Of a DNA stretch of 34,210 nucleotides, positions 3,807 to 34,198 are shown piece by piece (position 1 is the stretch's first letter; each line of letters starts with the position of its first letter). The notes beneath the pieces are model-generated. The model did not search any database. It saw nothing but the letters and a program-made list of their open reading frames with translations, and was not told the origin of the DNA. The position numbers and the translations under genes are program-made. Source of the DNA: Desulfocapsaceae bacterium (GTDB lineage Bacteria > Desulfobacterota > Desulfobulbia > Desulfobulbales > Desulfocapsaceae); NCBI GenBank assembly GCA_030653035.1, contig JAUSAB010000014.1:1-34210 (forward strand). The letters run 5' to 3'.

Positions 3807-4895
<1,089 letters not shown>

Positions 4896-8159: not shown

Positions 8160-9380
8160 TTGACTCACCAACCTGCCAAAACAACTGCGCTATCTTCTCC
8201 AATCAAGGTCCTTATCGCCGATGACTCCTGGGTTTTTCGTCGGATTTTGCGCGACACATTCAAAAAGATGCAACATATTGAAATCATGGATGACGCAGCC
8301 AATGGTATTGAGGCCCTTGAACAGATTATAAAAGTCAAGCCTGATGTCCTTATTCTGGATATGGAAATGCCGATCATGGATGGACTGACAACCCTGCAAC
8401 ACTTGATGATTCATACCCCGACTCCAACGATCATCTTTTCCAGTTTAAGTCAGAATGGCTCAGTCAGGTCTTTTGATGCGCTCAAGTATGGTGCCGTTGA
8501 TTTTATAGCCAAGTCTTCCTTTTTTAAGGGTAGTGATATGGCGGCCGATAATGAGTTAATTATCAAAAAAGTGACCCAGGCGGCAAACATCTCCGTCAGA
8601 TCGATTGATCCCATGCAGTCGACAATAGGCAAATGTGAGATTCATGATGCCCAGCAGCTCTTTTTTTGTGAAGATTGTGGGACCAAAAATGTTGTGAATA
8701 TGCAAACATATTTGACGCGTGGAAATGCACAATGCAGCAACTGCGGTGATGACTTGAAATTAAGTCCCCACGAAAGATTGCGTCGCCTTTCTTATGTCGT
8801 GGTGATGGGCGCAGGTGAGGGTGGTTATGGCAATCTCCTGCAAATTATCCCCTCGCTTTGTCCTGAAATGGGCGGGGCGGTGATTATTGTTATTCATGAC
8901 GAACCTGAGAATGTCTCTTCTTTTGTCGACTACCTTGGTTCAATCAGTGCCATGCCCGTGGTGCGAGGTCAGGACGGCCTGACGGTAGAAGGCGGAACCT
9001 GTTATGTCTTCTCCGGCTCTAAGCGAGTGACATTGTCGCCATATAGCGGTCATTATACCATTCGGGTCACAAGTGACCCGACATCCATGAAACAAGCAGC
9101 GCTCAACACAATATTGGCGTCAATGGCACCTCTTCTCAAAGAGCGGGTTGCGGGAATCCTGCTTTCCGGATCTGAAAATGACGGTGTAAGAGGGATGGAG
9201 GCAATTCGCAAGCACCATGGCACCGTCATTTCTTTGGAACTTAGCCGATGTCTTTGTAAGGATATGAGTGACAGGCTCCTACGAAAGTATCCTGAAACAT
9301 TGATTGCCAATGAACAAGGAATCGTTGAATTGATTCAAACCATGGAGCGTCAAAATAGAAAGCATGTCGCTACGGCATAA
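8160..9380 (+). CDS. CheB-like response regulator with zinc-ribbon insert and degenerate methylesterase domain
   Basis: 406 residues. A receiver domain covers about 14-135: acidic pair D21-D22, phospho-acceptor D67 in 'ILDMEMP', Ser95 and K118. Residues 159-196 hold C159 and two CxxC pairs (C170/C173, C192/C195), a zinc-ribbon not found in standard CheB. From about 210 the sequence follows the CheB methylesterase fold, but the nucleophile motif GASTGG reads 'GAGEGG' (217-222), so the catalytic Ser is Gly219. The family His (H246) and Asp (D341, in 'SENDGVRG') are kept. CheB normally demethylates chemoreceptors. This one probably cannot, and may act as a phospho-switchable binding protein. No cheR, cheA or receptor gene lies nearby. 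TTG start at 8160 with GAAGG 9 nt upstream. Confidence 0.85.
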   Translation: MTHQPAKTTALSSPIKVLIADDSWVFRRILRDTFKKMQHIEIMDDAANGIEALEQIIKVKPDVLILDMEMPIMDGLTTLQHLMIHTPTPTIIFSSLSQNGSVRSFDALKYGAVDFIAKSSFFKGSDMAADNELIIKKVTQAANISVRSIDPMQSTIGKCEIHDAQQLFFCEDCGTKNVVNMQTYLTRGNAQCSNCGDDLKLSPHERLRRLSYVVVMGAGEGGYGNLLQIIPSLCPEMGGAVIIVIHDEPENVSSFVDYLGSISAMPVVRGQDGLTVEGGTCYVFSGSKRVTLSPYSGHYTIRVTSDPTSMKQAALNTILASMAPLLKERVAGILLSGSENDGVRGMEAIRKHHGTVISLELSRCLCKDMSDRLLRKYPETLIANEQGIVELIQTMERQNRKHVATA

Positions 9381-15186: not shown

Positions 15187-15455
15187 CATACGGGCCGGTC
15201 GGGAAATGTTGCCGCTTCATTTCTGAAAGATTACACTGGTGTTGTGCAGACGAACGGATACGCCGGTTATGATTTTCTTGACAGGATACCGGATGTTCCC
15301 CATGCCGGTTGCTGGGCGCATGCAGTCGCAAGTTTATGGAGGCCCAGAAAGGAAGCGGCAAAGGGAGCCGAGCCGGAAGTGTGGACGTCGCCTTGAACTA
15401 CATCCGGCAGATCTATGCGGTCGAAAAGGAGGGGAAACAGAATGAATACTTTTAG
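15187..15455 (+). pseudogene. IS66 family transposase (TnpC), internal fragment with frameshift
   Basis: Reads 'TGRSGNVAASFLKDYTGVV', then 'QTNGYAGYDFLDRIPDV' and 'HAGCWAHA', the DDE-domain core of IS66 transposases. One base has been lost near 15323. The conserved continuation ('RKFMEAQKGSGK', then 'VDVALNYIRQIYAVEKEGK') resumes in another frame, ending with a TAG at 15453-15455. Both ends of the transposase are missing. IS66 DNA inserted in or recombined with the creB remnant explains the junction. Three bases downstream lies a 26-bp palindrome beginning GTAAGTGTCC, and IS66 ends commonly start with GTAA. Confidence 0.85.
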
Positions 15456-15457
15456 AT

Positions 15458-15491
15458 GTAAGTGTCCGTAATTGGACACTTACAAGAGTTA
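15458..15491 (+). repeat. 34-bp direct repeat, copy A (contains 26-bp palindrome)
   Basis: GTAAGTGTCC and GGACACTTAC form 10-bp arms around GTAATT (15458-15483), and the repeat continues ACAAGAGTTA. A copy with three mismatches lies at 24476-24509 in the same orientation. The position just after the IS66 fragment and the GTAA terminus suggest an insertion-sequence end. The two copies bracket the cytochrome operon. Confidence 0.7.
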
Positions 15492-15681
15492 AAATAGCTG
15501 AAAAATATTCTCAATTGTCTCTTCCTTAAAAAAACTACAAACCACACAACTTTCTTGCCTTTCAAAAAACATCCATTCCACAACCAAAAAATTAATATAT
15601 TTTTCGTCATAGTATTGAATACAAGATAACACATATTCCTAATAGGAAAAATAAGATTATTCAATAATATTGATATGAGAC

Positions 15682-15737
15682 GTTATTAACAGCAATAAAA
15701 AATGAATGGGAATTCATTTTTTATTGCTGTTAATAAC
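15682..15737. repeat. Perfect inverted repeat, 26-bp arms
   Basis: Left arm 15682-15707 (starting GTTATTAACAGC) is perfectly complementary to 15712-15737 (ending GCTGTTAATAAC), with the 4-nt loop GGGA. Perfect identity over 26 bp implies recent origin or selection. It could be a MITE-like remnant, a terminator for leftward or rightward reads, or a cruciform/operator site. The right arm overlaps the -35 of the candidate riboswitch promoter. Confidence 0.85.
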
Positions 15738-15752
15738 AAAATTCTATATAGT
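15724..15752 (+). promoter_or_regulatory. Candidate promoter for the riboswitch-cytochrome transcript
   Basis: TTGCTG (15724-15729) and TATAGT (15747-15752) are 17 nt apart, placing a start near 15759, about 50 nt before the riboswitch aptamer. The -35 lies within the right arm of the 26-bp inverted repeat. Only the -10 is a good match. Confidence 0.3.
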
Positions 15753-15810
15753 AAAAAAAATCATCAAAATATGTAGTAAGAATGTGGCGAGATTTGTCCA
15801 TTCACCAATA

Positions 15811-15889
15811 TAAAGTAAAGCCAAACCTGCTGTGAAGCAGGGACGGAATGCCTCGGGATTCAGAAGTGAATTGGCCGGGTGTTTTTTTT
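15811..15889 (+). ncRNA. GEMM-I (cyclic dinucleotide) riboswitch candidate
   Basis: The core reads AAAGCCAAACC, then a 6-bp stem CCTGCT/AGCAGG (15826-15841) closed by GNRA loop GTGA, then GGACGGAATGCC. A second hairpin follows (GATTC/GAATT, 15857-15872) and then GGCCGGGT. This order and spacing follow the GEMM-I aptamer (GCAAACC, GNRA stem, GGACGCAAAGCC, second stem, GCCGGGTTGCC). The GGACGGAA form resembles Geobacter members. The base matching position 20 of the Vibrio Vc2 aptamer is G (15820), as in c-di-GMP binders. The 3' ligand-contact C (position 92) seems to be U, so ligand choice is open. T8 at 15882-15889 can pair with the A-rich 5' strand, suggesting a transcriptional switch. It lies about 410 nt upstream of the octaheme gene. 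Confidence 0.7.
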
Positions 15890-16032
15890 GCCCAGCGATA
15901 TGTCACTTTGGCTGTCAGGTGAAGATGTCAACTCTGGTAATGGGATAGATAATGAGATAATCCAGAGATATGGGTTGTTTCAAATGACTTACAAAAGGTT
16001 CGATAAAAAATAAAATGTCCGTTAACACCGCT

Positions 16033-16078
16033 AAAAAAGCATTGGTGACCAGCCAGAAAATTGCAAGTGCTTTTTTTT
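16033..16078 (+). terminator. Weak terminator-like hairpin in the cytochrome leader
   Basis: AAAAAAGCA (16033-16041) can pair with TGCTTTTTT (16068-16076) and is followed by further T. The stem is mostly A-U with only a GCA/TGC clamp and a 26-nt loop, so it is weak by itself. Its place between riboswitch and operon makes it a possible attenuation element. Confidence 0.3.
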
Positions 16079-16299
16079 GAGTCGTTTATGTCGGTTCGCT
16101 GTTTGATTACTATTGGAGAAAGTAAGCAAGTAGCACTTTAGTTTTAAAGTAGTATTAAAGTCGTCATTCCATGTAAAAAATCTTCAACAATGTTTTTACG
16201 TGTGGATTTTCTCATACGGCACATAAAGGGAATCCAGGCAACAAAGCATCTAAAATATTTTTCAAATCCGGTCACTTTGTGTACCGGAGGGAGGGATTA

Positions 16300-17496
16300 A
16301 TGAAAGATCATGAAGTCAAACAAGGGCTTTTTTTTCTCTGGATAATAATGTCCTTCACCCTATTGCTACCGCAGCATTTGTATGCGGCCGATGAGGAGGC
16401 ATGTCTCGTCTGTCACAGGTACCCTGGTCTGGGGAGGATAGATCAGGCTGGGAGTCTGCGCCTTTTTTACGTGAACGATGGCACCCACAAAAATTCTGTA
16501 CATGGAAAAGTACTTTGTAGGCATTGTCATCTCAATCTTGATGTGATCCCCCATACCGATGCCAAGAAAGTCGACTGTGCGACCAAATGTCATCTCAAAG
16601 AACCTTCTACCGACCGGGAGTTCTCCCACGGTTCACACTACACTGAGATCAACGACAGTGTTCACGGTAAACTCACCAAAACTGGTGAACCAAAAAAGTT
16701 TAGCGAGGACATGCCCGGCTGCACTTCTTGCCATATTAATGCAGTTTACCGGCCCGTCACCAGCATTACAGAGCAAGAAGCTGGTGTCTCGGCCGATGCC
16801 CTGAGACGATGTCTCGGCTGCCATGAAGACAAAAATTGGACCAATCGTTTTTACCGGCACTTCAGTCACCGGCTGCATCGTTCAAAGACCCCCAAAGAAA
16901 CAGTCCTGCTTTGCCTTCAATGCCATGAAAATAAAAAGATGATGTCCCGGCATGGCCTTACCGCCACCGCCAACTATAAGGACACATACCACTGGAAAGG
17001 CGTGCTTTTCAGTGACCCCAACGCACCCGACTGCATCAGTTGTCATGCTCCGGTGGGGTATCCCGTGCATTCCATGAAAAGCATGGTGGAGTCCTCTTCT
17101 GCGGTTCATAAAAATAACCTGCGCCAGACCTGCGCCAACACCTCCGGCGTTCAACAATGCCATCCAAATGCAACGGCAAAGTTTGCGGAAGGAGAAATTC
17201 ATCAGGCCGGCTTGGGACTTGAAGACACAGTAGCGGCATTTATCAAGAATGAGGCTGCATTAAGCGACATCGACGACTTAAGAAAGGAACGTCGGTTCCG
17301 CAACCTTTTTGAAAATGTTGATGTTGACCCTGACACTTTTGACGAAGACGAAGCTTTCCATAGAAAAATATACGGCCTCGTGCGATATGTTTACACCTTA
17401 TTAATCACTGTAGTTATTGGAGGAATGCTCCTTCATCAGATTCTGGATTTTTATCGAACCGTTAAAAATCTGAAAAAACATGGGGAGGAAAACTGA
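16300..17496 (+). CDS. Membrane-anchored multiheme (octaheme) cytochrome c
   Basis: 398 residues from the ATG at 16300, preceded by GGAGGGAGG. An in-frame GTG 21 nt upstream is rejected. Signal segment about 9-29, cleaved near 'LYAA'. Heme c motifs: CxxCH at 35, 73, 141, 171, 205 and 245, a CX3CH at 93-98, and a possible CX8CH at 278-288. One C-terminal transmembrane helix (about 360-382) anchors the heme domain to the periplasmic face. Many spare His residues could serve as distal ligands. The stop overlaps the ATG of the b-type cytochrome gene (TGATG), implying a stoichiometric partnership. It probably takes electrons from that quinol-oxidising subunit. No exact family name was recognised. 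Confidence 0.88.
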   Translation: MKDHEVKQGLFFLWIIMSFTLLLPQHLYAADEEACLVCHRYPGLGRIDQAGSLRLFYVNDGTHKNSVHGKVLCRHCHLNLDVIPHTDAKKVDCATKCHLKEPSTDREFSHGSHYTEINDSVHGKLTKTGEPKKFSEDMPGCTSCHINAVYRPVTSITEQEAGVSADALRRCLGCHEDKNWTNRFYRHFSHRLHRSKTPKETVLLCLQCHENKKMMSRHGLTATANYKDTYHWKGVLFSDPNAPDCISCHAPVGYPVHSMKSMVESSSAVHKNNLRQTCANTSGVQQCHPNATAKFAEGEIHQAGLGLEDTVAAFIKNEAALSDIDDLRKERRFRNLFENVDVDPDTFDEDEAFHRKIYGLVRYVYTLLITVVIGGMLLHQILDFYRTVKNLKKHGEEN

Positions 17497-19076
17497 TGAA
17501 TTCAGAAAATAATACATCACACAACAATGACGCTAACGCGTCGACGAGCAAGACACGACCCAGAGAAATTGTGCGCCTTAATGGCCATGAAAGGCTTCAG
17601 CACCTCCTTACCTTTTTGACATTTTTTCTTTTGGTGGCCTCAGGATACGCCCTGCGTATACCGGAAGAATGGATACTGAAGTTGGGAGACGCAGGAAAAA
17701 CTCTTTTCTTCTACCGGGGACTCGTGCACCGCATTGCTGGTGTGGCTATGATCCTTGCTGGTTTCTATCACGTCGTTTACCTGATCGCCCACCGGGAGGG
17801 AAGATCATTCTTTATGGACATGATACCCAATCTGAAGGATGCAAAGGACATTTTTCAAAATCTTGCCTATTATATAGGAAAACGGCCCAATCCACCCGAA
17901 TTCGACCGCTTCGACTACCGGGAAAAGGCTGAATATCTGGCACTTGTGGCAGGTACGATTATCATCTGCGTAACCGGTGTCCTCCTGTGGACAGAGGCGC
18001 ACTGGAGTAAATTCGCCCTTGATCTTTCCCTGCTCATTCACGGCATGGAAGCCATCCTCGCCACACTTGCCATCATTGTCTGGCATTTTTATTCCGTTCA
18101 TTATAAACCCGGAAAATTTCCAATGAGCTGGGTGTGGATAACAGGAAAAATGCCGTTGCACGAGTTGGAAGAGGAACACCCGCTGGAGTTCAAGAGGATG
18201 GTCGAACAAGGCCTTATCAACCCCGATGACGCGCATCATGCAAGCCGCACCAAAAAAGGTTGTATGCAGGTCATCTTTGAGGGAGTTGTATTCTTGTCTT
18301 TTATTTTCTTTCTTGGCGTTTCCGTGCTGCTGATCAAGCTGCTTTACTTTCCACCCGAGACTCGACGCGTGGATCAGGTGGCGGATAAAGGGACACTGAA
18401 AACCTTTTTCAAGACATCCGAAGCCAAGGAAAGGGTAAGCTATTTCCATACCCCTGACGCAAGTGTTAAGCCAGTCACCCTCAATCCTGTAGTCTGTGTG
18501 CAATGCCATGGTACTTTCCCCCATAGCAAATCACCTGATGTCCGTTCCTTCCTGAATATGCACAATTACTTCATGGCCTGTGAAACCTGTCACGTTCACC
18601 AACGTGACATCGAGACAAAACTGGATTATGTCTGGTTCGACAATAAAACAGAGAGGAAAATAGACGCTCTTGTTGGTGACAGTGGTGTTTACGGCGCCAA
18701 AATGGTTCCTGTTCTTACGTCGAGCACAGGCGAACCACGGCGTCTTGATAATTCGACCAACGAAGATTTTGTCAAGGAATACATAGCAACCAAGAGCAAG
18801 CTCACGCTAGAGGAACAGGCAAAGGCCAAGGTGGTTCTTCATAAAGATATCTCAAAGAAACCGGTTCAATGTACGGAGTGCCACGGCAAAAAACCATATA
18901 TTGATTTTACCACTGTTTTATATACTCCACAGCAGGCACAAAGCCTCTATCGTACCGAGGTAGCAGATATGATCGACAAGTACATGAAGTTCTACCTGCC
19001 GACCATGTTTGACATAGATCTCATGAAGAAGCAGAAAACAGAAGGCTTGGAGAAAGAAAATCGGCCAACCAAGTAA
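17496..19076 (+). CDS. Cytochrome b561-type quinol oxidoreductase subunit fused to triheme c domain
   Basis: 526 residues. The N-terminal half is a b561/FdnI-like membrane domain with helices near 37-54, 75-97, 148-168 and 180-201. Paired His candidates for two b hemes include H31/H36, H78/H92 and H182/H197. A fifth helix (about 259-284) leads to a C-terminal periplasmic part with three heme c motifs: CVQCH (334), CETCH (362) and CTECH (459). The fold suggests menaquinol oxidation and electron delivery to attached c hemes. This is similar in concept to the Cbc-type b/c proteins of Geobacter. It overlaps the octaheme gene by one base, and the NHL gene starts 2 nt after its stop. GGAGG ribosome-binding site at 17483-17487. 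Confidence 0.9.
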   Translation: MNSENNTSHNNDANASTSKTRPREIVRLNGHERLQHLLTFLTFFLLVASGYALRIPEEWILKLGDAGKTLFFYRGLVHRIAGVAMILAGFYHVVYLIAHREGRSFFMDMIPNLKDAKDIFQNLAYYIGKRPNPPEFDRFDYREKAEYLALVAGTIIICVTGVLLWTEAHWSKFALDLSLLIHGMEAILATLAIIVWHFYSVHYKPGKFPMSWVWITGKMPLHELEEEHPLEFKRMVEQGLINPDDAHHASRTKKGCMQVIFEGVVFLSFIFFLGVSVLLIKLLYFPPETRRVDQVADKGTLKTFFKTSEAKERVSYFHTPDASVKPVTLNPVVCVQCHGTFPHSKSPDVRSFLNMHNYFMACETCHVHQRDIETKLDYVWFDNKTERKIDALVGDSGVYGAKMVPVLTSSTGEPRRLDNSTNEDFVKEYIATKSKLTLEEQAKAKVVLHKDISKKPVQCTECHGKKPYIDFTTVLYTPQQAQSLYRTEVADMIDKYMKFYLPTMFDIDLMKKQKTEGLEKENRPTK

Positions 19077-19077
19077 A

Positions 19078-20007
19078 ATGATTTTCTACCGCTGGTTGAC
19101 TCTTTCGTTTTCCCTGCTTCTGCTATTCTCTCCCGGTGCTGTTTCTGCAAAAAACAGCACCGGCGAGATAATAGCCTATAAACAGGTTCTTGAGATATCA
19201 ACCCACCTCCAGCTGCCAAGCGATGTCGCCGTGGATGGCAAAGGGCACATTTACGTCCTCGACGGTACCGTAAATCTTGTACGTGTATACGACAAGAAGG
19301 GAATACCTCTTTTCACCCTTGGCGGTGATAAGATGCTGAACCAGCCTCTTGGTATCGATGTTTCACCCGCTGGTGATGTACTGGTTGCCGATTCCGGCAA
19401 CCATCGGCTTGCTTATTTTGCCTTGGGACAAACAACGCCTCAGTATTTGGATTTACCATCTCCTCCAGATGGTAAACCTGCAGATCCCACGGATGTATGT
19501 TTTGGGGTAGACAACCGCACCTTTCTCGCAGTTGATAATGACAACCACAGGATACTTGCTTTGGATCACAGCGGAGCAATTCTCTGGTCGCGAGGGGGGA
19601 TGGGGCGTAATCCTGGCGAGTTTCGTTTTCCTTTCATGATGGACCAAGATGAGGCAGGAAATATCTATGTCGTGGAGGTAATCAATACTCGGGTTCAGGT
19701 TCTTGATGCCAAAGGCAACTTCTCCCAATTTATTGGTGAATGGGGGATTGAACCAGGACAACTGTATAGACCAAAGGGCGTGGCTGTCAATGATAGCAGC
19801 GAGGTGTTTGTCTCGGACAGCTATCTCGGGGTTATTCAGATCTTTGATCGAGAGGGACGACTCACAGGTATTGTGGGAGATGAAAATGGCAAACTCAGAA
19901 AATTCATTACCCCTGTCGGCATGACTTCATCGGACAGTAGGCTGTTTGTTGTTGAAATGTTTAAAAATCGAATCACCGTATTGCAAAGGCAGAAGTCGGA
20001 AAATTAA
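19078..20007 (+). CDS. Exported NHL-repeat beta-propeller protein
   Basis: 309 residues with a signal peptide (about 1-24, cleaved near 'AVSA'). The rest is a series of NHL repeats of about 45 residues. Recurring segments are 'PSDVAVDGKGHIYVLDG', 'PLGIDVSPAGDVLVADSGNHR', 'PTDVCFGVDNRTFLAVDNDNHR', 'YRPKGVAVNDSSEVFVSDS' and others, giving a six-bladed or similar propeller. There are no heme motifs. NHL propellers are protein-interaction scaffolds, and in multiheme cytochrome operons they recur as partners of unproven role. It starts 2 nt after the b/c cytochrome stop, and the 22-heme gene begins 5 nt after its own stop. Co-translation and co-assembly are therefore likely. Confidence 0.9.
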   Translation: MIFYRWLTLSFSLLLLFSPGAVSAKNSTGEIIAYKQVLEISTHLQLPSDVAVDGKGHIYVLDGTVNLVRVYDKKGIPLFTLGGDKMLNQPLGIDVSPAGDVLVADSGNHRLAYFALGQTTPQYLDLPSPPDGKPADPTDVCFGVDNRTFLAVDNDNHRILALDHSGAILWSRGGMGRNPGEFRFPFMMDQDEAGNIYVVEVINTRVQVLDAKGNFSQFIGEWGIEPGQLYRPKGVAVNDSSEVFVSDSYLGVIQIFDREGRLTGIVGDENGKLRKFITPVGMTSSDSRLFVVEMFKNRITVLQRQKSEN

Positions 20008-20011
20008 ATCA

Positions 20012-22666
20012 ATGCATAGATTATTCCCGGCATTTCTCACAATCCTATTACTGGCTGTGCTTGCCATACCACTAACAATCCAGGCAGAAGGCAACCTCCT
20101 GGTTCAGAACTCATCACGAGAATGTGCCATCTGCCATTTCAGATGGATGGATCAATTTGTTCAGGGTCACGGCACGCTACTGGCTCCCCTTGAGATCGAG
20201 GATGTCGCAGGCGATGAAATGATGTGCCTGAGCTGCCATGATGGCTCCAATCAGGATTCCCGCTCCAAGGTATGGCTGAAGGATATGCACAAAACCGGCA
20301 TTGTCCCTTCGGACAAGGTAACCATTCCAAAACTGTTTCCACTATCACATGATGGAAAGATAGTGTGCGCCACCTGCCACTCCGCCCACTCCAACCCGAC
20401 GGATACCAGCATTGAGCGCTCTGTTTTTTTACGGATTACCAATAATAATTCCATTATGTGCGAGATGTGTCATGTCGCCCAACTGGACAAGGTTCATAAT
20501 CATCCCCTTCATGAGGGAAAAAGACCGCTTCCAGCCACAATCTACGATGCCGGCGGTGTCCGTTCCACTACCGATCCGAATCACCTGATTTGTGAAAGCT
20601 GCCATACGGCCCATGGTGCAGTTGAAAAAAATCTCATCCTGCCGGTGACCAATTCCGTTCTCTGTGCAGCTTGCCATGGTGACAAGATAGACGATACGTC
20701 CGCGCCTCCATCGCAGCAAAAAAATCATCCTCTTTTAGTCAAGTACAATCCTGATCCCGCCCATGAAAAGGATATGCGGGCCGTCCCCAAAAACACCCTC
20801 CAATGTCTTTCCTGCCACAAAGTTCATGGACATGAGGCTGGCATCAAGGGCCTGATTGCCACCAAAGACACTCTCTGCGCTTACTGCCACAGTGACAAAG
20901 CAGATCTGAGCTCAACGCCAGCATCATGGGGGAAAAACCACCCTCTGTCAGTTGCCTTTAAGCCAGTGGCTGAAAGTGCCAAACTCCTTGAGGCTGGACC
21001 AAAGGGGACTGTTCGCTGCTACACCTGCCACAAGGTGCATGGGCATGAACCCGGAACAAGAGGACTGGCAACAAAAAGAGACATATTGTGCGCTGCCTGT
21101 CATATTCAGCAATCTCTCGTCGCCAGAACAGATCATGATCTGGGCGTCACTGCTCCTGACACTAACAATGTAGCTGAACAAAATGTTCAACAGGCGGGCA
21201 TATGCAGCCCTTGTCATATTCCTCACAAAGCCACAGGACCGGCACTTTCGGCTCGTCGCATTGCAAAATATTCTGACGAACACTCGGCTATCTGTATCAG
21301 TTGCCATCAGGAAAAAGGACCGGCCTCAAAAAAGACTGTAGGACAGTACTCGCACCCAGTTGGTATTGCAGTAAAAAATCCTACCCTGCCCCTCTTTAAA
21401 AAAAATAACGCCAGCGAAATCATGGCCTGTCAGACCTGTCACAATCCTCACCAGTGGCAGCCCGGACTGCAAACAAAAGGAACAGGTGCTAATCTGGAAG
21501 GCAATGCTGGAAACAGTTTTTTACGAAAGCCCGCAGGAACTGATCCCGCGCTTTGCGCAACCTGTCATCCAGACCACTACTTAATAGAGGGTACGGATCA
21601 CGATCTTGCAGTCACTGCCCCGGAAAAGACCAATATTACCGGACAGAATGTCCAGCAATCCGGGGTCTGTGGTGCCTGTCACGTTCCACACAATGCAGCA
21701 GGTCGCTCTCTATGGGCGGGCAGCATAACGGCAACAAAGAATGCATCGCCTTCGGCCATATGCCTTGACTGTCATCATAAGGATGGGATTGCTACAAAAA
21801 AGACCACGGGACAACATTCCCATCCTGTTAATGTTGTTGCTGAGTCCGAGTTATTGCCGCTTTACACAAGGATGGACAAGAAAAAAGTGATGGAATGTTC
21901 CTCCTGCCACAACCCTCATAGATGGGTGGCCCAATCAGACAAAAAGGGGAAGGGAATCAATCTCGAGGGAAACGGTGACAGCAGTTTCCTCCGTGCCGGA
22001 ACTTTGGCAAAACCCCTGCTCTGCGAAAAGTGCCACCAGCAAAAAGCACTGGTGACCGGAACGGATCATGACATGCGGATAACTGCTCCATCTTCAGTAA
22101 ATCTGCATGGAGAGAGGGCGAGTGAAGGTTCTGTCTGTGCCCCATGTCACTCGGTGCATAATGCATCCGGAGAAATCCTGTTATGGAATTCTCCACTGGC
22201 TGATCAGGGCCTGGATTTCATGGAAATGGCCTGTAACGGTTGCCACAGTAAATCCGGAGCAGGGAAAGATAAGATTATCACCAGCGGAGTCCATCCAAAA
22301 AAACTCTATTTTGGCTACAACAAATCATATCGTGACATTCTTATTCCCATGGAAGAACCGGCGCAGGAACCAATTCCCCTCTACAGTGACCAGGGAGTTC
22401 AATCACCTAAAGGCGAAATATCCTGCCCGACCTGCCATGATGCTCATGTCTGGAATGCCCAAACCGGTTATGTTAAACACGAAGGAAATCAAGAGGGAAC
22501 GGTTGTGGATAGCTTCCTGAGAAAGAGCGCCAGAAACGATCTTTGTTACGCCTGCCATGGCAGAAACACGCTTATGTTGTACAGATACTACCATGATGCC
22601 AAGGAAAAAAAGAGAATTCTCGGCCAATCTTCGGTCAAACAACAACAAATTATGCCCGCTAAGTAA
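20012..22666 (+). CDS. 22-heme periplasmic or extracellular cytochrome c
   Basis: 884 residues from the ATG at 20012. In-frame upstream codons would overlap the NHL gene and place the signal peptide internally. Signal peptide about 1-25 ('LAIPLTIQA'). I count 22 CxxCH motifs from 'CAICH' near 38 to 'CYACH' near 846, with no other domain. Internal duplication is plain. A 71-residue, two-heme unit beginning 'KNHPL' occurs twice (about 235-375). A unit of about 155 residues with four hemes, marked by 'TDHDLxVTAPxxxN', occurs three times from residues 373, 528 and 684. No membrane helix or lipobox, so it is periplasmic or secreted. It would serve as an electron wire or store downstream of the membrane module. 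Confidence 0.92.
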   Translation: MHRLFPAFLTILLLAVLAIPLTIQAEGNLLVQNSSRECAICHFRWMDQFVQGHGTLLAPLEIEDVAGDEMMCLSCHDGSNQDSRSKVWLKDMHKTGIVPSDKVTIPKLFPLSHDGKIVCATCHSAHSNPTDTSIERSVFLRITNNNSIMCEMCHVAQLDKVHNHPLHEGKRPLPATIYDAGGVRSTTDPNHLICESCHTAHGAVEKNLILPVTNSVLCAACHGDKIDDTSAPPSQQKNHPLLVKYNPDPAHEKDMRAVPKNTLQCLSCHKVHGHEAGIKGLIATKDTLCAYCHSDKADLSSTPASWGKNHPLSVAFKPVAESAKLLEAGPKGTVRCYTCHKVHGHEPGTRGLATKRDILCAACHIQQSLVARTDHDLGVTAPDTNNVAEQNVQQAGICSPCHIPHKATGPALSARRIAKYSDEHSAICISCHQEKGPASKKTVGQYSHPVGIAVKNPTLPLFKKNNASEIMACQTCHNPHQWQPGLQTKGTGANLEGNAGNSFLRKPAGTDPALCATCHPDHYLIEGTDHDLAVTAPEKTNITGQNVQQSGVCGACHVPHNAAGRSLWAGSITATKNASPSAICLDCHHKDGIATKKTTGQHSHPVNVVAESELLPLYTRMDKKKVMECSSCHNPHRWVAQSDKKGKGINLEGNGDSSFLRAGTLAKPLLCEKCHQQKALVTGTDHDMRITAPSSVNLHGERASEGSVCAPCHSVHNASGEILLWNSPLADQGLDFMEMACNGCHSKSGAGKDKIITSGVHPKKLYFGYNKSYRDILIPMEEPAQEPIPLYSDQGVQSPKGEISCPTCHDAHVWNAQTGYVKHEGNQEGTVVDSFLRKSARNDLCYACHGRNTLMLYRYYHDAKEKKRILGQSSVKQQQIMPAK

Positions 22667-22688
22667 ATTCGTCTTAATATAAAACAAA

Positions 22689-23948
22689 ATGAGCATGATG
22701 AAACCAGTTGAATCATACCGATTTTCATTATTATCGTGTCTAGTTTCCCCCTTTATCCTTATTTTTTTACTGGCAATGGTCTCCTGTTCCGTACTTGAGC
22801 AATCACAGAACAACGTCATCAGCAAGCAGGAAAAATCACCACATATTCCTGAAGATGAAACCACCTGTTTTGTCTGCCATAAAAAGGATTCTGTAGAAAA
22901 AGGGAAGCCGGAGAAGATACTGGCCTCCGATATTGAGGTGCGTTGTACATCCTGCCATAATTCCCTGACAAGTGTGCATTACCTTGGCATCAACCCCTTT
23001 ACTGACCCTCTGGCTCTTCAACAATACACAAGCCCGGAAAAAATTCTTGCCGATGATCAAGCCAGTTGTATCGCCTGCCACTCTCCCCACGCGGCAGAAA
23101 ATAACAACAGATACCGCCTAACTAAAGAATATCTTCGGCTGGCAACCATAGCAAGAAGTATTAATCCGCACAGGCAACAGCCTATGTGTCTCTCCTGCCA
23201 CAGTACTGCCCCTGTCGCAGGGCAGCCTAACCTTGCAAAAGATGGCAATATCAATGCCCTGTGCAACCACTGCCATGCCTCTGGATTTGCAAGAAAAGAG
23301 ATTCATCCCGTGGGGATCATTCCTTCAAAGCATATACGGATACCGCCCGACATGCCCCTGCAGAATGGCTTGCTTACCTGTGAGACATGTCATCAGTCTT
23401 CATTGCAACCCGGCAATCCCTGTCAAAGTGTAGCCGACAAAAAAGAAAACAAAAGATTTCTGCGCGGAGGCAAACTCTCCAGGAGTGATTTTTGTTTTCT
23501 CTGCCATATCGAAGAGACATATAAACGCTTGAATGCTCACCTACAGTTAGATGAGCAAGGACAGATCAAAGAAAAAACTTGCCTCTTCTGCCATGCAACC
23601 CGTCCGGATATCAATATTTTAGGACTGAATCAGGTGGTTTTCCTTGTGGACGACATTAATGTGCCCTGTATGGGATGTCATTCCGGATTTGAGGTAAAAC
23701 ATCCTTCGGGAGGCAACCATTTAAGAGAACCCAAAGGAAAAATCCTGCAAGGCCTGAAAACAGCGATAGATCGAATCGGTGTGGAACTTCCCCTGTATAA
23801 CGGAAAAATTGTCTGCGCAACCTGTCATAATCCCCATCAGGACGGGGTAATTAAAATCAACGCTGCGGCAGCAGGAAGCCAAAGAAAAAACAAATTGCGG
23901 TTATTACCGGGAAGCTTACAGTGCACAGGCTGCCACTGGGACAGATAA
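22689..23948 (+). CDS. 11-heme cytochrome c, putative lipoprotein
   Basis: 419 residues. A hydrophobic segment (about 12-32) ends 'LLAMVSCSV', a possible lipobox with lipidated C33 (Met at -3 is unusual). Eleven CxxCH motifs follow: CFVCH, CTSCH, CIACH, CLSCH, CNHCH, CETCH, CFLCH, CLFCH, CMGCH, CATCH and CTGCH. The last sits four residues from the C-terminus. It is last in the operon, 22 nt after the 22-heme gene. The ribosome-binding site is poor, and ATGs at 22695 or 22698 are equally possible starts. A lipid-anchored multiheme cytochrome would suit an outer-membrane exit point. No beta-barrel porin gene accompanies it here. Confidence 0.88.
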   Translation: MSMMKPVESYRFSLLSCLVSPFILIFLLAMVSCSVLEQSQNNVISKQEKSPHIPEDETTCFVCHKKDSVEKGKPEKILASDIEVRCTSCHNSLTSVHYLGINPFTDPLALQQYTSPEKILADDQASCIACHSPHAAENNNRYRLTKEYLRLATIARSINPHRQQPMCLSCHSTAPVAGQPNLAKDGNINALCNHCHASGFARKEIHPVGIIPSKHIRIPPDMPLQNGLLTCETCHQSSLQPGNPCQSVADKKENKRFLRGGKLSRSDFCFLCHIEETYKRLNAHLQLDEQGQIKEKTCLFCHATRPDINILGLNQVVFLVDDINVPCMGCHSGFEVKHPSGGNHLREPKGKILQGLKTAIDRIGVELPLYNGKIVCATCHNPHQDGVIKINAAAAGSQRKNKLRLLPGSLQCTGCHWDR

Positions 23949-26194: not shown

Positions 26195-27856
26195 TCACTC
26201 TGCAAGATCAAGAGGAGATGTCGTGTCAAGCGGAGGCGTTAGAAAATTTTTGTTTTTCACAACAGACCAGGAAGTGGTATCAAGCCAATCCTGAAGCTCA
26301 TTACTTGGCAGAGGGCGGCAAAGATGAAAGCCCTGGAGAATATCGCAGCCCAGTTCCTCCAAGAATTGCAGGGTGTCCTCATTCTCAACACCTTCCGCTA
26401 CCACTTTGCGGCCGATGTTATGAATCATCTCAATGGTAGATCTGACGATCACCGCATTATCCTCATTCTGGAGCATATCAATAATAAAGGATTTATCGAT
26501 TTTAATCTCACGGGCCGGGAAGTTTTTCAAATACGATATGGAGGAATAGCCCGTGCCAAAATCATCAATGGAGAGATGCAGGCCCATTCTTTTAAGCTCG
26601 GCAACGACCCTGGCAACCCGATCCTCGTCAACGACAATACTGCTTTCAGTAATTTCCAGAAGTAGCATTTCCGGCTTAATCTGCCACTTAGCGAGAAGAA
26701 TAGCGACATCAGAGGGAAAGTTGAGATCGTGAAGGTTTTTGAGGGATAAATTCACCGCAACCGGAATGTGATAGCCAGCCTGTTGCCATTTGCCACATTG
26801 TTCCAGGGCCTTATCAAGTACCAGAGTCGTAAATTGTTTACAGAGTCCGGCCTGTTCGGCAAGGGAAATAAAATCATCCGGATCGACGATTCCCCGATTT
26901 GCGTGCTGCCAGCGAGCCAAGGCTTCTACACCAATCAAGGTCCTGTTACGAATGGATATTTTTGGTTGATAGCAGAGAAATATGTCGTTCTTTTTGATGG
27001 CATCACGCAGCTCACCAATCAATACCAGACGATTAAAGGTCGCCCGGTGCTGCTCGATATTAAAAATGGCATAGATAACATCGTTACGCTTGGCATCATA
27101 CATGGCTATATCTGCCCGCTGCACCAGAGTCTCACTATCGGCTCCATGGTCGGGGTACATAGCAATTCCGACACTGATACCCACCTTAAGGCTATGCCCC
27201 TCAATCATAAAGGGCTGATCAATGGTACTGGCAATCTTCATACTGATCATAACCGCTTCTTCCAAGGTTGTATCAGGCAGTACCAGGGCAAATTCATCGC
27301 CGCCAACTCGGGCCAAGGTATCAGATTCCCGCATCACATTCTTCATCCGAAAAGCTACTTCCTGCAGAACATAATCACCGTAAAAATGGCCCAGAGAGTC
27401 ATTAATCTCTTTAAAACGAACAAGGTCCATAAGAACAAAGGCTAGGGGATTCCGATTACGTTTGGCAATCAACAGGCCATGATCGAGCCGCTCCTCGGCC
27501 AGGATACGGTTCGGCAGTTCTGTGAGCTCGTCATGGAGGGCCCGATGCCGTTCCAGGGAGGCAAAATGCTCGCTCAGCTTGATGGAGGCCAGGCTCAGCC
27601 GCACCACCATGACGACAAAAATGGCGCCGCTAAAAAGGATGGTGGCAACAATCATCTCCAGGGTGGAGGATTGTTCTTTCAGCACCACATTCAGGAAGAG
27701 GATATAGCCGATGATAAAGAAGAGGATCAGAACGCCAAGAAATTTCCAAGAGGCGTAAAGTTGATGTTTTCTGAGACAGATCTTTCTGGTTGGATTAAGT
27801 GAAAAAGCAAGCAGGGCGATGCCTGCCAGAACCATGGTTATGGATACAATTTTCAA
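26195..27856 (-). CDS. Membrane GGDEF-EAL protein (c-di-GMP synthase/phosphodiesterase)
   Basis: 553 residues. Three hydrophobic segments (about 4-20, 38-58, 67-88) place the N-terminus in the inner membrane, with no recognisable sensor. GGDEF domain about 105-265: intact GGDEF (185-189), inhibitory-site RESD (176-179), and guanine-binding N152 and D161. The Asp at 161 argues for c-di-GMP rather than the cGAMP made by Geobacter Hypr enzymes, which carry Ser there. EAL domain about 285-525: 'EAL' (311-313), 'NLS', 'ITES', 'IDDFGTG' (430-436) and 'AEGVE' (487-491) are all kept, so both activities are possible. TTG start at 27856 with AAGGA 9 nt upstream. Confidence 0.93.
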   Translation of the reverse strand: MKIVSITMVLAGIALLAFSLNPTRKICLRKHQLYASWKFLGVLILFFIIGYILFLNVVLKEQSSTLEMIVATILFSGAIFVVMVVRLSLASIKLSEHFASLERHRALHDELTELPNRILAEERLDHGLLIAKRNRNPLAFVLMDLVRFKEINDSLGHFYGDYVLQEVAFRMKNVMRESDTLARVGGDEFALVLPDTTLEEAVMISMKIASTIDQPFMIEGHSLKVGISVGIAMYPDHGADSETLVQRADIAMYDAKRNDVIYAIFNIEQHRATFNRLVLIGELRDAIKKNDIFLCYQPKISIRNRTLIGVEALARWQHANRGIVDPDDFISLAEQAGLCKQFTTLVLDKALEQCGKWQQAGYHIPVAVNLSLKNLHDLNFPSDVAILLAKWQIKPEMLLLEITESSIVVDEDRVARVVAELKRMGLHLSIDDFGTGYSSISYLKNFPAREIKIDKSFIIDMLQNEDNAVIVRSTIEMIHNIGRKVVAEGVENEDTLQFLEELGCDILQGFHLCRPLPSNELQDWLDTTSWSVVKNKNFLTPPLDTTSPLDLAE

Positions 27857-32764: not shown

Positions 32765-34198
32765 TTATTGTAACGAGGAAGGAGGCTTTACCCCCAGCTT
32801 GGTATAGAGTTCCATTTGATGCTTGGTGGTCTCGCCAACCTGAAGTCGTCGCCCAGGCACTTCAAAGCATTCAATAACATCCAATTCGTCGAGAACTTCT
32901 TGCAGGGTATAGGTTTTAAACAGCTTGCTCTCCTGCATTTTCTTCGTGATATAGGACAGATAGATCAGAGCGATAAATTGCACGAAGAGCTTGCCATCAA
33001 GGCTTTGTTCCGAGGAAACAGCCAATCGTCGAAGATTGAGCCGTTCCTTCAGGTTGTCGAAGGCCTTTTCGACCACATCTTTATTCCGATAGATCTCCAG
33101 AGCCTGCACAGCGTCCCGGATGTCGTTGCTCAGCAAGGGAAAATAGCCGAAATTGCGCTTGGCTTCAGCTATGGCTTCATCTTTAGCGGTAACCTTGATG
33201 CCGCGAACCGGCGTTTGCGTCACTTCAAAATATTTTGCATATTGCTGCTCATAGTCATGATTGCGCTGTCCGCTCTCCAGCTCTTGTTGCCTTTCGGATA
33301 ATCGACTGTTGAATGCTTTTTCGTCTTCCAGAGCCCGATCCGGAGAGAAATACAGATGAAGATACATCCGCCGATTTCCCTTGAAGGTGTCTCCTTTATT
33401 CGGTCGTTCTTGACTATACTCCCAGGTGATTGGCCGGGTCATACTGTAAACCTGGTACTCCTGGCTGTAATTATTCCAGTTTCGCATTGTCTCACGGACC
33501 GTATCCAGCTGGGTCTTAACCAGTTGCAGGGAGAGCTTCCCGGCGATCAAGAACTTCAGGTGGTGCTGGCACAGCCCGTTGATATTGGCAGCACTGTAAA
33601 AACCACGGTCCAAAACGACCTTTATCTTTTTGTAGCCGATGGTGTTCATGTCTGCCAACAGCTTCCTGATTGTTTTTACGTCAGAAATATTTCCGGTCAG
33701 CTTGCGGTAATAAAAGGGCAAACGAGAATCCTGGCCGAAGAGCAAAGTCAGGTTGATCTGGGCCAGATGTTCATGATCTTTGTTTGTGCCGTAGCGAACT
33801 TGTCTGAGAGTTTGTGAATAGCTCGAGACCGAGGTGCTGTCATAGGCCAGATACTCTTGCTCAACTCGTCGATTACCCTGGAGACGAAAGAACTTCTGTC
33901 TGGCATCTTCGCTAATCGAGGCAAACAGCTCACTGCTCCTTTGGGAGGTGATCGCCTCTCTATATGGGTGATAATGAGTACTTGCCCATCGAGGAAAGCG
34001 GCTCAAAGGGTTTCTGTCCTCCATGATCAGATAATAGGCAATGGAGAGTATCTGCCGGTACTGATCAGGGAAGCAAACCTGCAAATCCTTGGCAACACCT
34101 GTAACTTCACCAATTTGGTCGAAGAGATTGGTCGCTCCGTAAAAATTTCTGGTGGCAACCGTTACCGGCGCTGGCCCAGGCTTGCCCCTCTCTTTCAT
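32765..34198 (-). mobile_element. DDE transposase (IS4/IS1634-type), 5' end may lie outside window
   Basis: 477 codons from an ATG at 34198. The frame remains open to the window edge at 34210, so the true start may lie outside. DDE triad candidates: Asp in 'YDSTSVSSYS', Asp in 'VLDRGFYSAANI', and Glu in 'VVEKAFDNLKERLNLRRL', followed by 'LFVQFIALIYLSYI', an arrangement typical of IS1634/IS4-group enzymes. No frameshift is visible, so it may be active. The left end of the element should lie between its stop and the kinase start (32659-32764). I could not recognise the terminal inverted repeat because the partner end is not in the window. Confidence 0.85.

Follow-up and report, generated by a model that had tools for sequence, protein, structure and literature searches.

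A GEMM-I riboswitch ahead of a multiheme-cytochrome operon in a Desulfocapsaceae bacterium that has probably lost its output

Introduction

Does the GEMM-I RNA that precedes a multiheme-cytochrome operon in a Desulfocapsaceae bacterium still control that operon? The RNA lies in a 34,210-nucleotide stretch of contig JAUSAB010000014.1 (assembly GCA_030653035.1), referred to here as the window. The original prediction, made from the letters alone, was of an ON switch in which a ligand-stabilized P1 helix, formed by an A-rich 5' strand and a tract of eight U, would hide that tract and so prevent termination. The genome belongs to the same genus as a Desulfocapsa MAG, not to Geobacter, and the whole case rests on this one draft genome. 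Gene 1 of the operon has a counterpart at 88% identity in the MAG of Desulfocapsa sp. N3_15 (Desulfocapsaceae). A genome of the same genus, designated G006, carries the orthologous leader and a gene 1 that is 88% identical, and it provided the main comparison.

Results

A covariance search of the whole window (cmscan) returned one Rfam match above threshold, to the c-di-GMP-I (GEMM-I) family RF01051 at 15810-15887 (+); it scored 46.3 bits (gathering score 35) at E = 3.8e-06. As the score exceeds gathering, the RNA is by descent a member of RF01051, and the GEMM-I identity assigned to it is borne out, with the 3' strand missing. When the threshold was opened over 15300-16700, the top clan member was c-di-GMP-I-UAU (RF03168) at 48.4 bits; this is below that family's own gathering score of 65.9, and the RNA has a G at position 20 where the RF03168 consensus is U, so that it falls outside RF03168. 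The elements follow one another as AAACC, a CCUGCU/AGCAGG stem with the GNRA loop GUGA, GGACGGAAUGCC, a second stem and GCCGGG.

The individual features that had been described, all on the forward strand, are present: the P2 stem with its GUGA loop (15826..15841), intact in the alignments to RF01051 and RF03168; the P3 stem (15850..15879), intact in alignments and folds; G20 (15820); A47 (15847); a U at position 92 (15883); and a run of eight T (15882..15889). Within P2, a C-G pair stands in place of a U-G pair of G006 as a result of T15830C. The position numbers are those of Vc2. Both ligand-sensing bases, G20 and A47, are thus found in alignments to the two models, and the A20 that marks the cGAMP type (GEMM-Ib) is replaced by G. 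This base selects the ligand, and G points to c-di-GMP over cGAMP, as had been proposed, on the nucleotide-20 specificity given in passages of PMC6456294. C92, the Watson-Crick partner of the ligand, is absent; excerpts of PMC9049102 name G20, A47 and C92, and count C92 among the key residues. Elsewhere in the 3.41-Mb genome no second GEMM-I was found with RF01051 at E up to 0.001 (best 150 of 258 candidates), and no further relic with our own 40-sequence family model at E up to 10 (best 150 of 800 candidates).

The aptamer lies 413 bases 5' of the multiheme-cytochrome genes, which form a five-gene operon on the forward strand (16300 to 23948). Gene 1 (16300..17496) encodes a multiheme cytochrome with an MtrC/F-like domain, six CXXCH motifs and one CX3CH motif; gene 2 (17496..19076), a cytochrome b561-type membrane protein with three CXXCH; gene 3 (19078..20007), an NHL-repeat protein; gene 4 (20012..22666, counted from the first ATG at 20012, the mechanical ORF running from 19946), a cytochrome with 22 CXXCH; and gene 5 (22689..23948), a cytochrome with 11 CXXCH and, by eye, a lipoprotein-like start. 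The operon had been recognized correctly for what it is; the 44 hemes ascribed to it come down to 42 CXXCH motifs and one CX3CH motif over the five genes. A protein with GGDEF and EAL domains, for c-di-GMP synthesis and breakdown, is encoded downstream on the reverse strand (26195..27856). With 33 GGDEF matches in this genome, compared with 43 in G006, c-di-GMP signalling itself has been kept. At the contig end there is a DDE transposase gene (32765-34198, reverse strand). One in-frame TGA in the gene-1 homologues of five genomes prompted us to consider selenocysteine, which we rejected: in L034, the sole homologue translated separately, the TGA is the C-terminal stop, and in alignment A2 the residue read as selenocysteine sits near the C-terminus.

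The leaders of the window and G006 align from 5' of an inverted repeat upstream of the riboswitch as far as the start codon, except at about 16160-16260. At the riboswitch there is a single gap: between GCCGGG and the T-run, G006 has 26 bases (CTGCCATATCAAAGCGGTAGCTCGGT) and the window has none, the junction falling at 15879..15880. In G006 the segment provides the 3' strand of the aptamer, in which C92 and C93 lie, the loop, and the 3' arm that pairs with the terminator 5' arm CCGGGCTGCC. G006 contains six near-copies of a cassette made up of inverted repeat, promoter region, aptamer and terminator, the orthologous leader included; the 26-base segment is present in all six, and their T-runs are 7 to 11 T long. 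A deletion in the window's lineage would be the simplest reading, because an insertion in G006 would need to recreate an aptamer end that is common to other relatives. Since such a deletion brings the T-run beside P3, both the "U92" and the "U8" of the window would be terminator T-run, the latter its relic. U92 as a natural ligand-switching substitution was considered and rejected, as the G006 leader and the six cassettes trace it to the deletion.

An error of assembly or sequencing has to be weighed at this point: the genome is a draft in 118 contigs, and what is missing is one arm of a hairpin, rich in GC and beside a T-run. The gap is nevertheless a sharp one of 26 bases, its flanks align readily and the stretch contains no N; we consider it very improbable that the genome has the full switch and that the hairpin arm was lost in assembly.

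Compared with the G006 copy on contig C80, the aptamer has 6 differences in 71 sites and the UTR that follows it has 19 in 240; these divergences are similar, so that neither special constraint nor special decay is visible, and from such counts the loss may be young. Where the six G006 copies agree, the window has changed at 2 of 54 columns of P2/P3 and at 2 of 47 of the palindrome; the figures for the promoter region and the P1 strand are 4 of 41 and 2 of 12. Position 92 was compared among 88 relatives from 30 genomes, fetched out of the 99 RF01051 matches listed besides the window's (ten of G043 and one of G052 were omitted): it is C in 81, U in six and A in one, and four of the six with U belong to a subgroup with an extra hairpin and a different architecture (see below). 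At the conserved columns of alignment A1 (n = 40) the window has 8 departures and ranks third of 41 sequences, behind two relatives, presumably working switches, that have 10 and 9; these counts are weaker evidence than the position-92 count, because the 40 members were picked from 53 fetched family-level relatives mainly by P3 length.

The cassette has several features beyond the aptamer. Its palindrome is, in the window, a 26-bp perfect inverted repeat with a 4-base loop (15682..15737; z -12.5), and none of 200 shuffles folds as well. The palindrome part is matched in 12 of the 17 genomes of the genus, and two more of the 14 matching genomes have the aptamer part only. Among the instances compared, varying palindrome bases are mostly, not always, matched on the opposite arm, as for an operator or a hairpin. 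A candidate promoter noted by eye (TTGCTG, 17 bases, TATAGT; 15724..15752, forward strand) has its first hexamer in the right arm of the palindrome; a sigma-70 scan gave three promoter-like sites against 3.3 in shuffles, and this candidate was not among them. The palindrome-promoter part, with the aptamer absent from the matched part, recurs at four more places in the window's own genome (G000), namely C77:34362-34507, C112:14166-14324, C23:85038-85135 and C113:6905-7040.

The six G006 cassettes, each of roughly 250-300 bases, lie on contigs C80, C10, C88, C96, C110 and C165 and have different genes downstream: two multiheme proteins and, by eye, a carbonic anhydrase, a Fur-type regulator, a pyrophosphatase and a CBS protein, where the gene named is the longest ORF starting within 900 bases and not always the next gene. 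We read these copies as dispersal of the whole riboswitch-promoter module. The stretch of about 100 bases around 16160-16260 that the window's leader has and the G006 leader lacks contains, by eye, an imperfect inverted repeat, CATGTAAAAA...TTTTTACGTG.

The second half of a switch is its expression platform. Intrinsic terminators were scored with a formula that we take to be of the d'Aubenton-Carafa type. All 11 G006 switches scored between 31.9 and 67.1, against 0.4 for the best residual hairpin of the window. A strong terminator that shares bases of its 5' arm with the aptamer 3' strand is absent here, and between 15740 and 16300 the scan found no other candidate above zero. At the level of the family, 28 of 53 leaders have a terminator with a positive score; the other 25 have none and may act in another mode. 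By eye, the hairpins in the 28 leaders start within GCCGG (or a variant), the 3' strand of P3, and extend into YYR(C), so that terminator and ligand-bound aptamer draw on the same bases and compete. On this arrangement the intact relatives are predicted to be c-di-GMP ON switches. The ON logic first proposed for the window therefore suits the relatives, which look like ON switches, and does not carry over to the window's own copy as a working switch, where the 26 bases are gone.

The residual hairpin raises the possibility that the deletion created a new attenuator, P3 and the T-run together forming a ligand-independent intrinsic terminator that damps the operon. P3 is indeed extended by AUG/UGU and followed by T7, with a dG of -11.6, and when the core was shuffled and the tail kept, as few as 14 of 200 sequences reached 0.4. 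That score, however, is right at the threshold. The stem is interrupted by two bulges and closed at its base by A-U and G-U pairs, and the comparable figure in every one of the 11 G006 switches is 31.9 or more. Nor is the hairpin listed by a simple terminator scan, which returned two other sites (0.7 in shuffles) at 15841-15826 (-) and 16078-16098 (+). We regard attenuation as unlikely.

The P1 helix is where the original prediction placed the switching. Folds of the window RNA keep P2 and P3 and extend P3, and A47 pairs with the T-run side. The usual 3' strand of P1, the helix that closes the junction, is absent. The proposed pairing of the A-rich 5' strand with the T-run, as a GUAAAG/UUUUGC helix, would be a replacement; of four transcript lengths folded, the minimum-energy structure contained it at 96 bases and not at 88, 90 or 100. 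At 100 bases this helix is 0.5 kcal/mol above the minimum-energy fold, and the ensemble is expected to hold 0.55 pairs between 15806-15819 and 15879-15889. Two window-specific changes, A15815G and T15891C, form the closing G-C pair of this possible new P1; few changes are involved, and the pairing may be due to chance.

These observations bear on whether the window has a working minimal ON switch, in which ligand-stabilized P1 prevents termination and, with G20/U92, 3',3'-cGAMP is a possible ligand. The RF01051 score, the fold at 96 bases with its near-equal at 100, and the new closing pair all speak for it; so does the occurrence of G20/U92 aptamers among the relatives (6 of 88), from which it follows that U92 alone need not mean a dead switch. 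On the other hand, the helix takes up G20 itself and is lost from the minimum-energy fold at three lengths, and C92 and C93 are both missing. The bases shared between alternative structures in the relatives are those of the terminator 5' arm rather than a U tract serving as a P1 strand, and the U8 tract is the tail of a true terminator, separated from P3 in G006 by the 26 further bases. Moreover, when termination occurs the U tract is still within the hybrid in the polymerase, where it cannot pair upstream and so cannot be hidden in time. The claim that P1 conceals the U tract is not supported for the window copy, and a working minimal switch, kept as a rival reading, seems to us decidedly improbable.

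GEMM-I is patchy in this group. RF01051 was found in 31 of the 58 genomes searched, the window's own included, and in the window's genus at least one copy is present in 9 of 17 genomes, with 1 to 11 copies each. G011, of the same genus and 99% complete, has no match, although some other negatives are incomplete genomes. Among 23 loci with operon homologues in named genomes, one (that of G006) has an RF01051 match within the flanks fetched, several of which end at contig ends. Two of the aptamers with G20 and U92 lie outside the extra-hairpin subgroup and are candidates for altered specificity or decay, judging from their sequences: G016:C13:447-520 (L083), with a terminator-like hairpin scoring 9.8, and G023:C235:7804-7881 (L093), for which no terminator-like hairpin was found.

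Four RF01051 matches are without the usual 3' end and yet are long and conserved. They share a layout of P3, an extra hairpin (UUCGAA...UUCGAG) and a closing P1 of UGAUAC/GUAUCA. A model built from these four was run over 257 genomes of the order, with 13 candidates per genome scored and strict filters, and found at least six copies in three genomes, four of these copies being those that had built the model. The six score 75.5 bits or more, against 67.8 or less for ordinary GEMM-I, and the copy at 75.5 bits reached 111.4 bits once its long P3 insert was included. The copies are G003:C7:138122-138291 and 140839-140962 (L213:1607-1804 and 4340-4463), G009:C13:28264-28386, G009:C69:5813-5935 and 8294-8406, and G209:C25:11288-11410 (L214:2289-2411). 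Position 92 is U in four and C in two. Two copies compared with Rfam had RF03168 as best match, below its gathering score. Covariation among the four model rows is not clearly above that in shuffles (71 of 500 reach it), and the extra hairpin thus rests on pairing and conservation. All six copies are followed at a short distance by an ORF for a protein with (V/T)P(I/L)PG(A/S), hydrophobic residues and a basic tail at its C-terminus, presumably an exosortase-type sorting signal. The subgroup is more novel than the probably decayed switch of the window.

Discussion

The answer that best fits these comparisons is that the cytochrome operon has probably escaped riboswitch control, because about 26 bases, which held a key ligand contact and one arm of the off-switch, are missing. 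We think it likely, from the sequence comparison, that this GEMM-I riboswitch has been deprived of its output and of one of the two contacts to its ligand, and that the operon was thereby freed. In the intact form, c-di-GMP would keep GCCGGG-YUG-C92 inside the aptamer, and GCCGGGYUGCC would thereby be unavailable as 5' arm to the intrinsic terminator that follows directly, leaving expression ON. The deletion would have removed C92, C93, the aptamer 3' strand and the terminator 3' arm, with the T-run left abutting P3. Ligand binding is predicted to be lost or very weak and the terminator to be absent or, at best, feeble. At any level of c-di-GMP, transcription that starts at the upstream promoter would therefore run into the cytochrome operon. 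A switch locked ON would be the likeliest outcome, a wild counterpart, by analogy, of the laboratory-selected pgcA mutants of Geobacter; the source cited for the evolved pgcA variants is reportedly Tremblay 2011.

Evidence against a broken switch is that P2 and P3 are well kept and that the score is above gathering. The 3' contact strand, however, is unpaired consensus at the end of the RF01051 model, so that its loss is forgiven in the score, and the case warns against equating an Rfam match above gathering with a working switch. It is also conceivable that the deletion rewired the RNA instead of breaking it: the T-run would serve as both terminator tail and new P1 strand, A15815G and T15891C would strengthen the closing pair, and G20/U92 would read one G and one A. 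A minimal cGAMP-type switch would then have arisen from a c-di-GMP switch in one step; we give this very little credence. If loss of output is instead the right reading, a natural electron-transfer operon has been freed from second-messenger control, in parallel to laboratory selection on Geobacter pgcA, and an intact close relative allows a clean comparison.

Work on other GEMM-I RNAs gives these predictions a background. Passages of PMC9262584 report that the ligand-pairing C75 of pilM is sequestered by the terminator, that pilM and Cd1 cease to bind when the pairing C is occupied, and that changing the equivalent G of Cd1 to A or C has no large effect; those of PMC6456294 report that A-to-G at nucleotide 20 of Gmet_0970 turns cGAMP selectivity to c-di-GMP. 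A G20A/C92U double mutant has a Kd of 4900 nM against 0.011 nM (in part of PMC9049102) and binds c-di-AMP (in part of PMC7288161); in the literature passages searched, no Kd was found for C92U alone. According to further excerpts, changes in the G. sulfurreducens pgcA riboswitch give cGAMP-insensitive, constitutive expression (PMC6456294), selection for growth on Fe(III) oxide enriches riboswitch mutations that raise pgcA expression (PMC5732950), and GEMM riboswitch mutations arose in 17-year electrode cultures (PMC13194489). A non-exhaustive survey of the literature at title level found no decayed GEMM-I leader, no Desulfocapsa riboswitch and no GEMM-I with PEP-CTERM genes.

The window shares with the c-di-GMP-I family (RF01051) P2, P3, A47, G20, the C21-G46 and C22-G45 pairs and a place in a multiheme-cytochrome leader, and differs from it in having no C92, C93, usual P1 3' strand or strong terminator. 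A47 and U92 are common to RF03168 (c-di-GMP-I-UAU) and the window, where U92 comes from the deletion. The leaders of G006 follow the same plan as the cGAMP ON switch of pilM in Geobacter metallireducens, in that the aptamer 3' strand is the terminator 5' arm; pilM is cGAMP-selective, in contrast to the G20 seen here, and the window lacks the overlapping region (as described in parts of PMC9262584). A parallel for the window itself is the set of evolved pgcA variants of Geobacter sulfurreducens, C78U, 94+G and 93+A, described in passages of PMC6456294. There, too, a damaged GEMM-I leader precedes a cytochrome gene and expression is ligand-independent, which for the window is a prediction; the window differs in its loss of 26 bases, its organism and its c-di-GMP-type aptamer.
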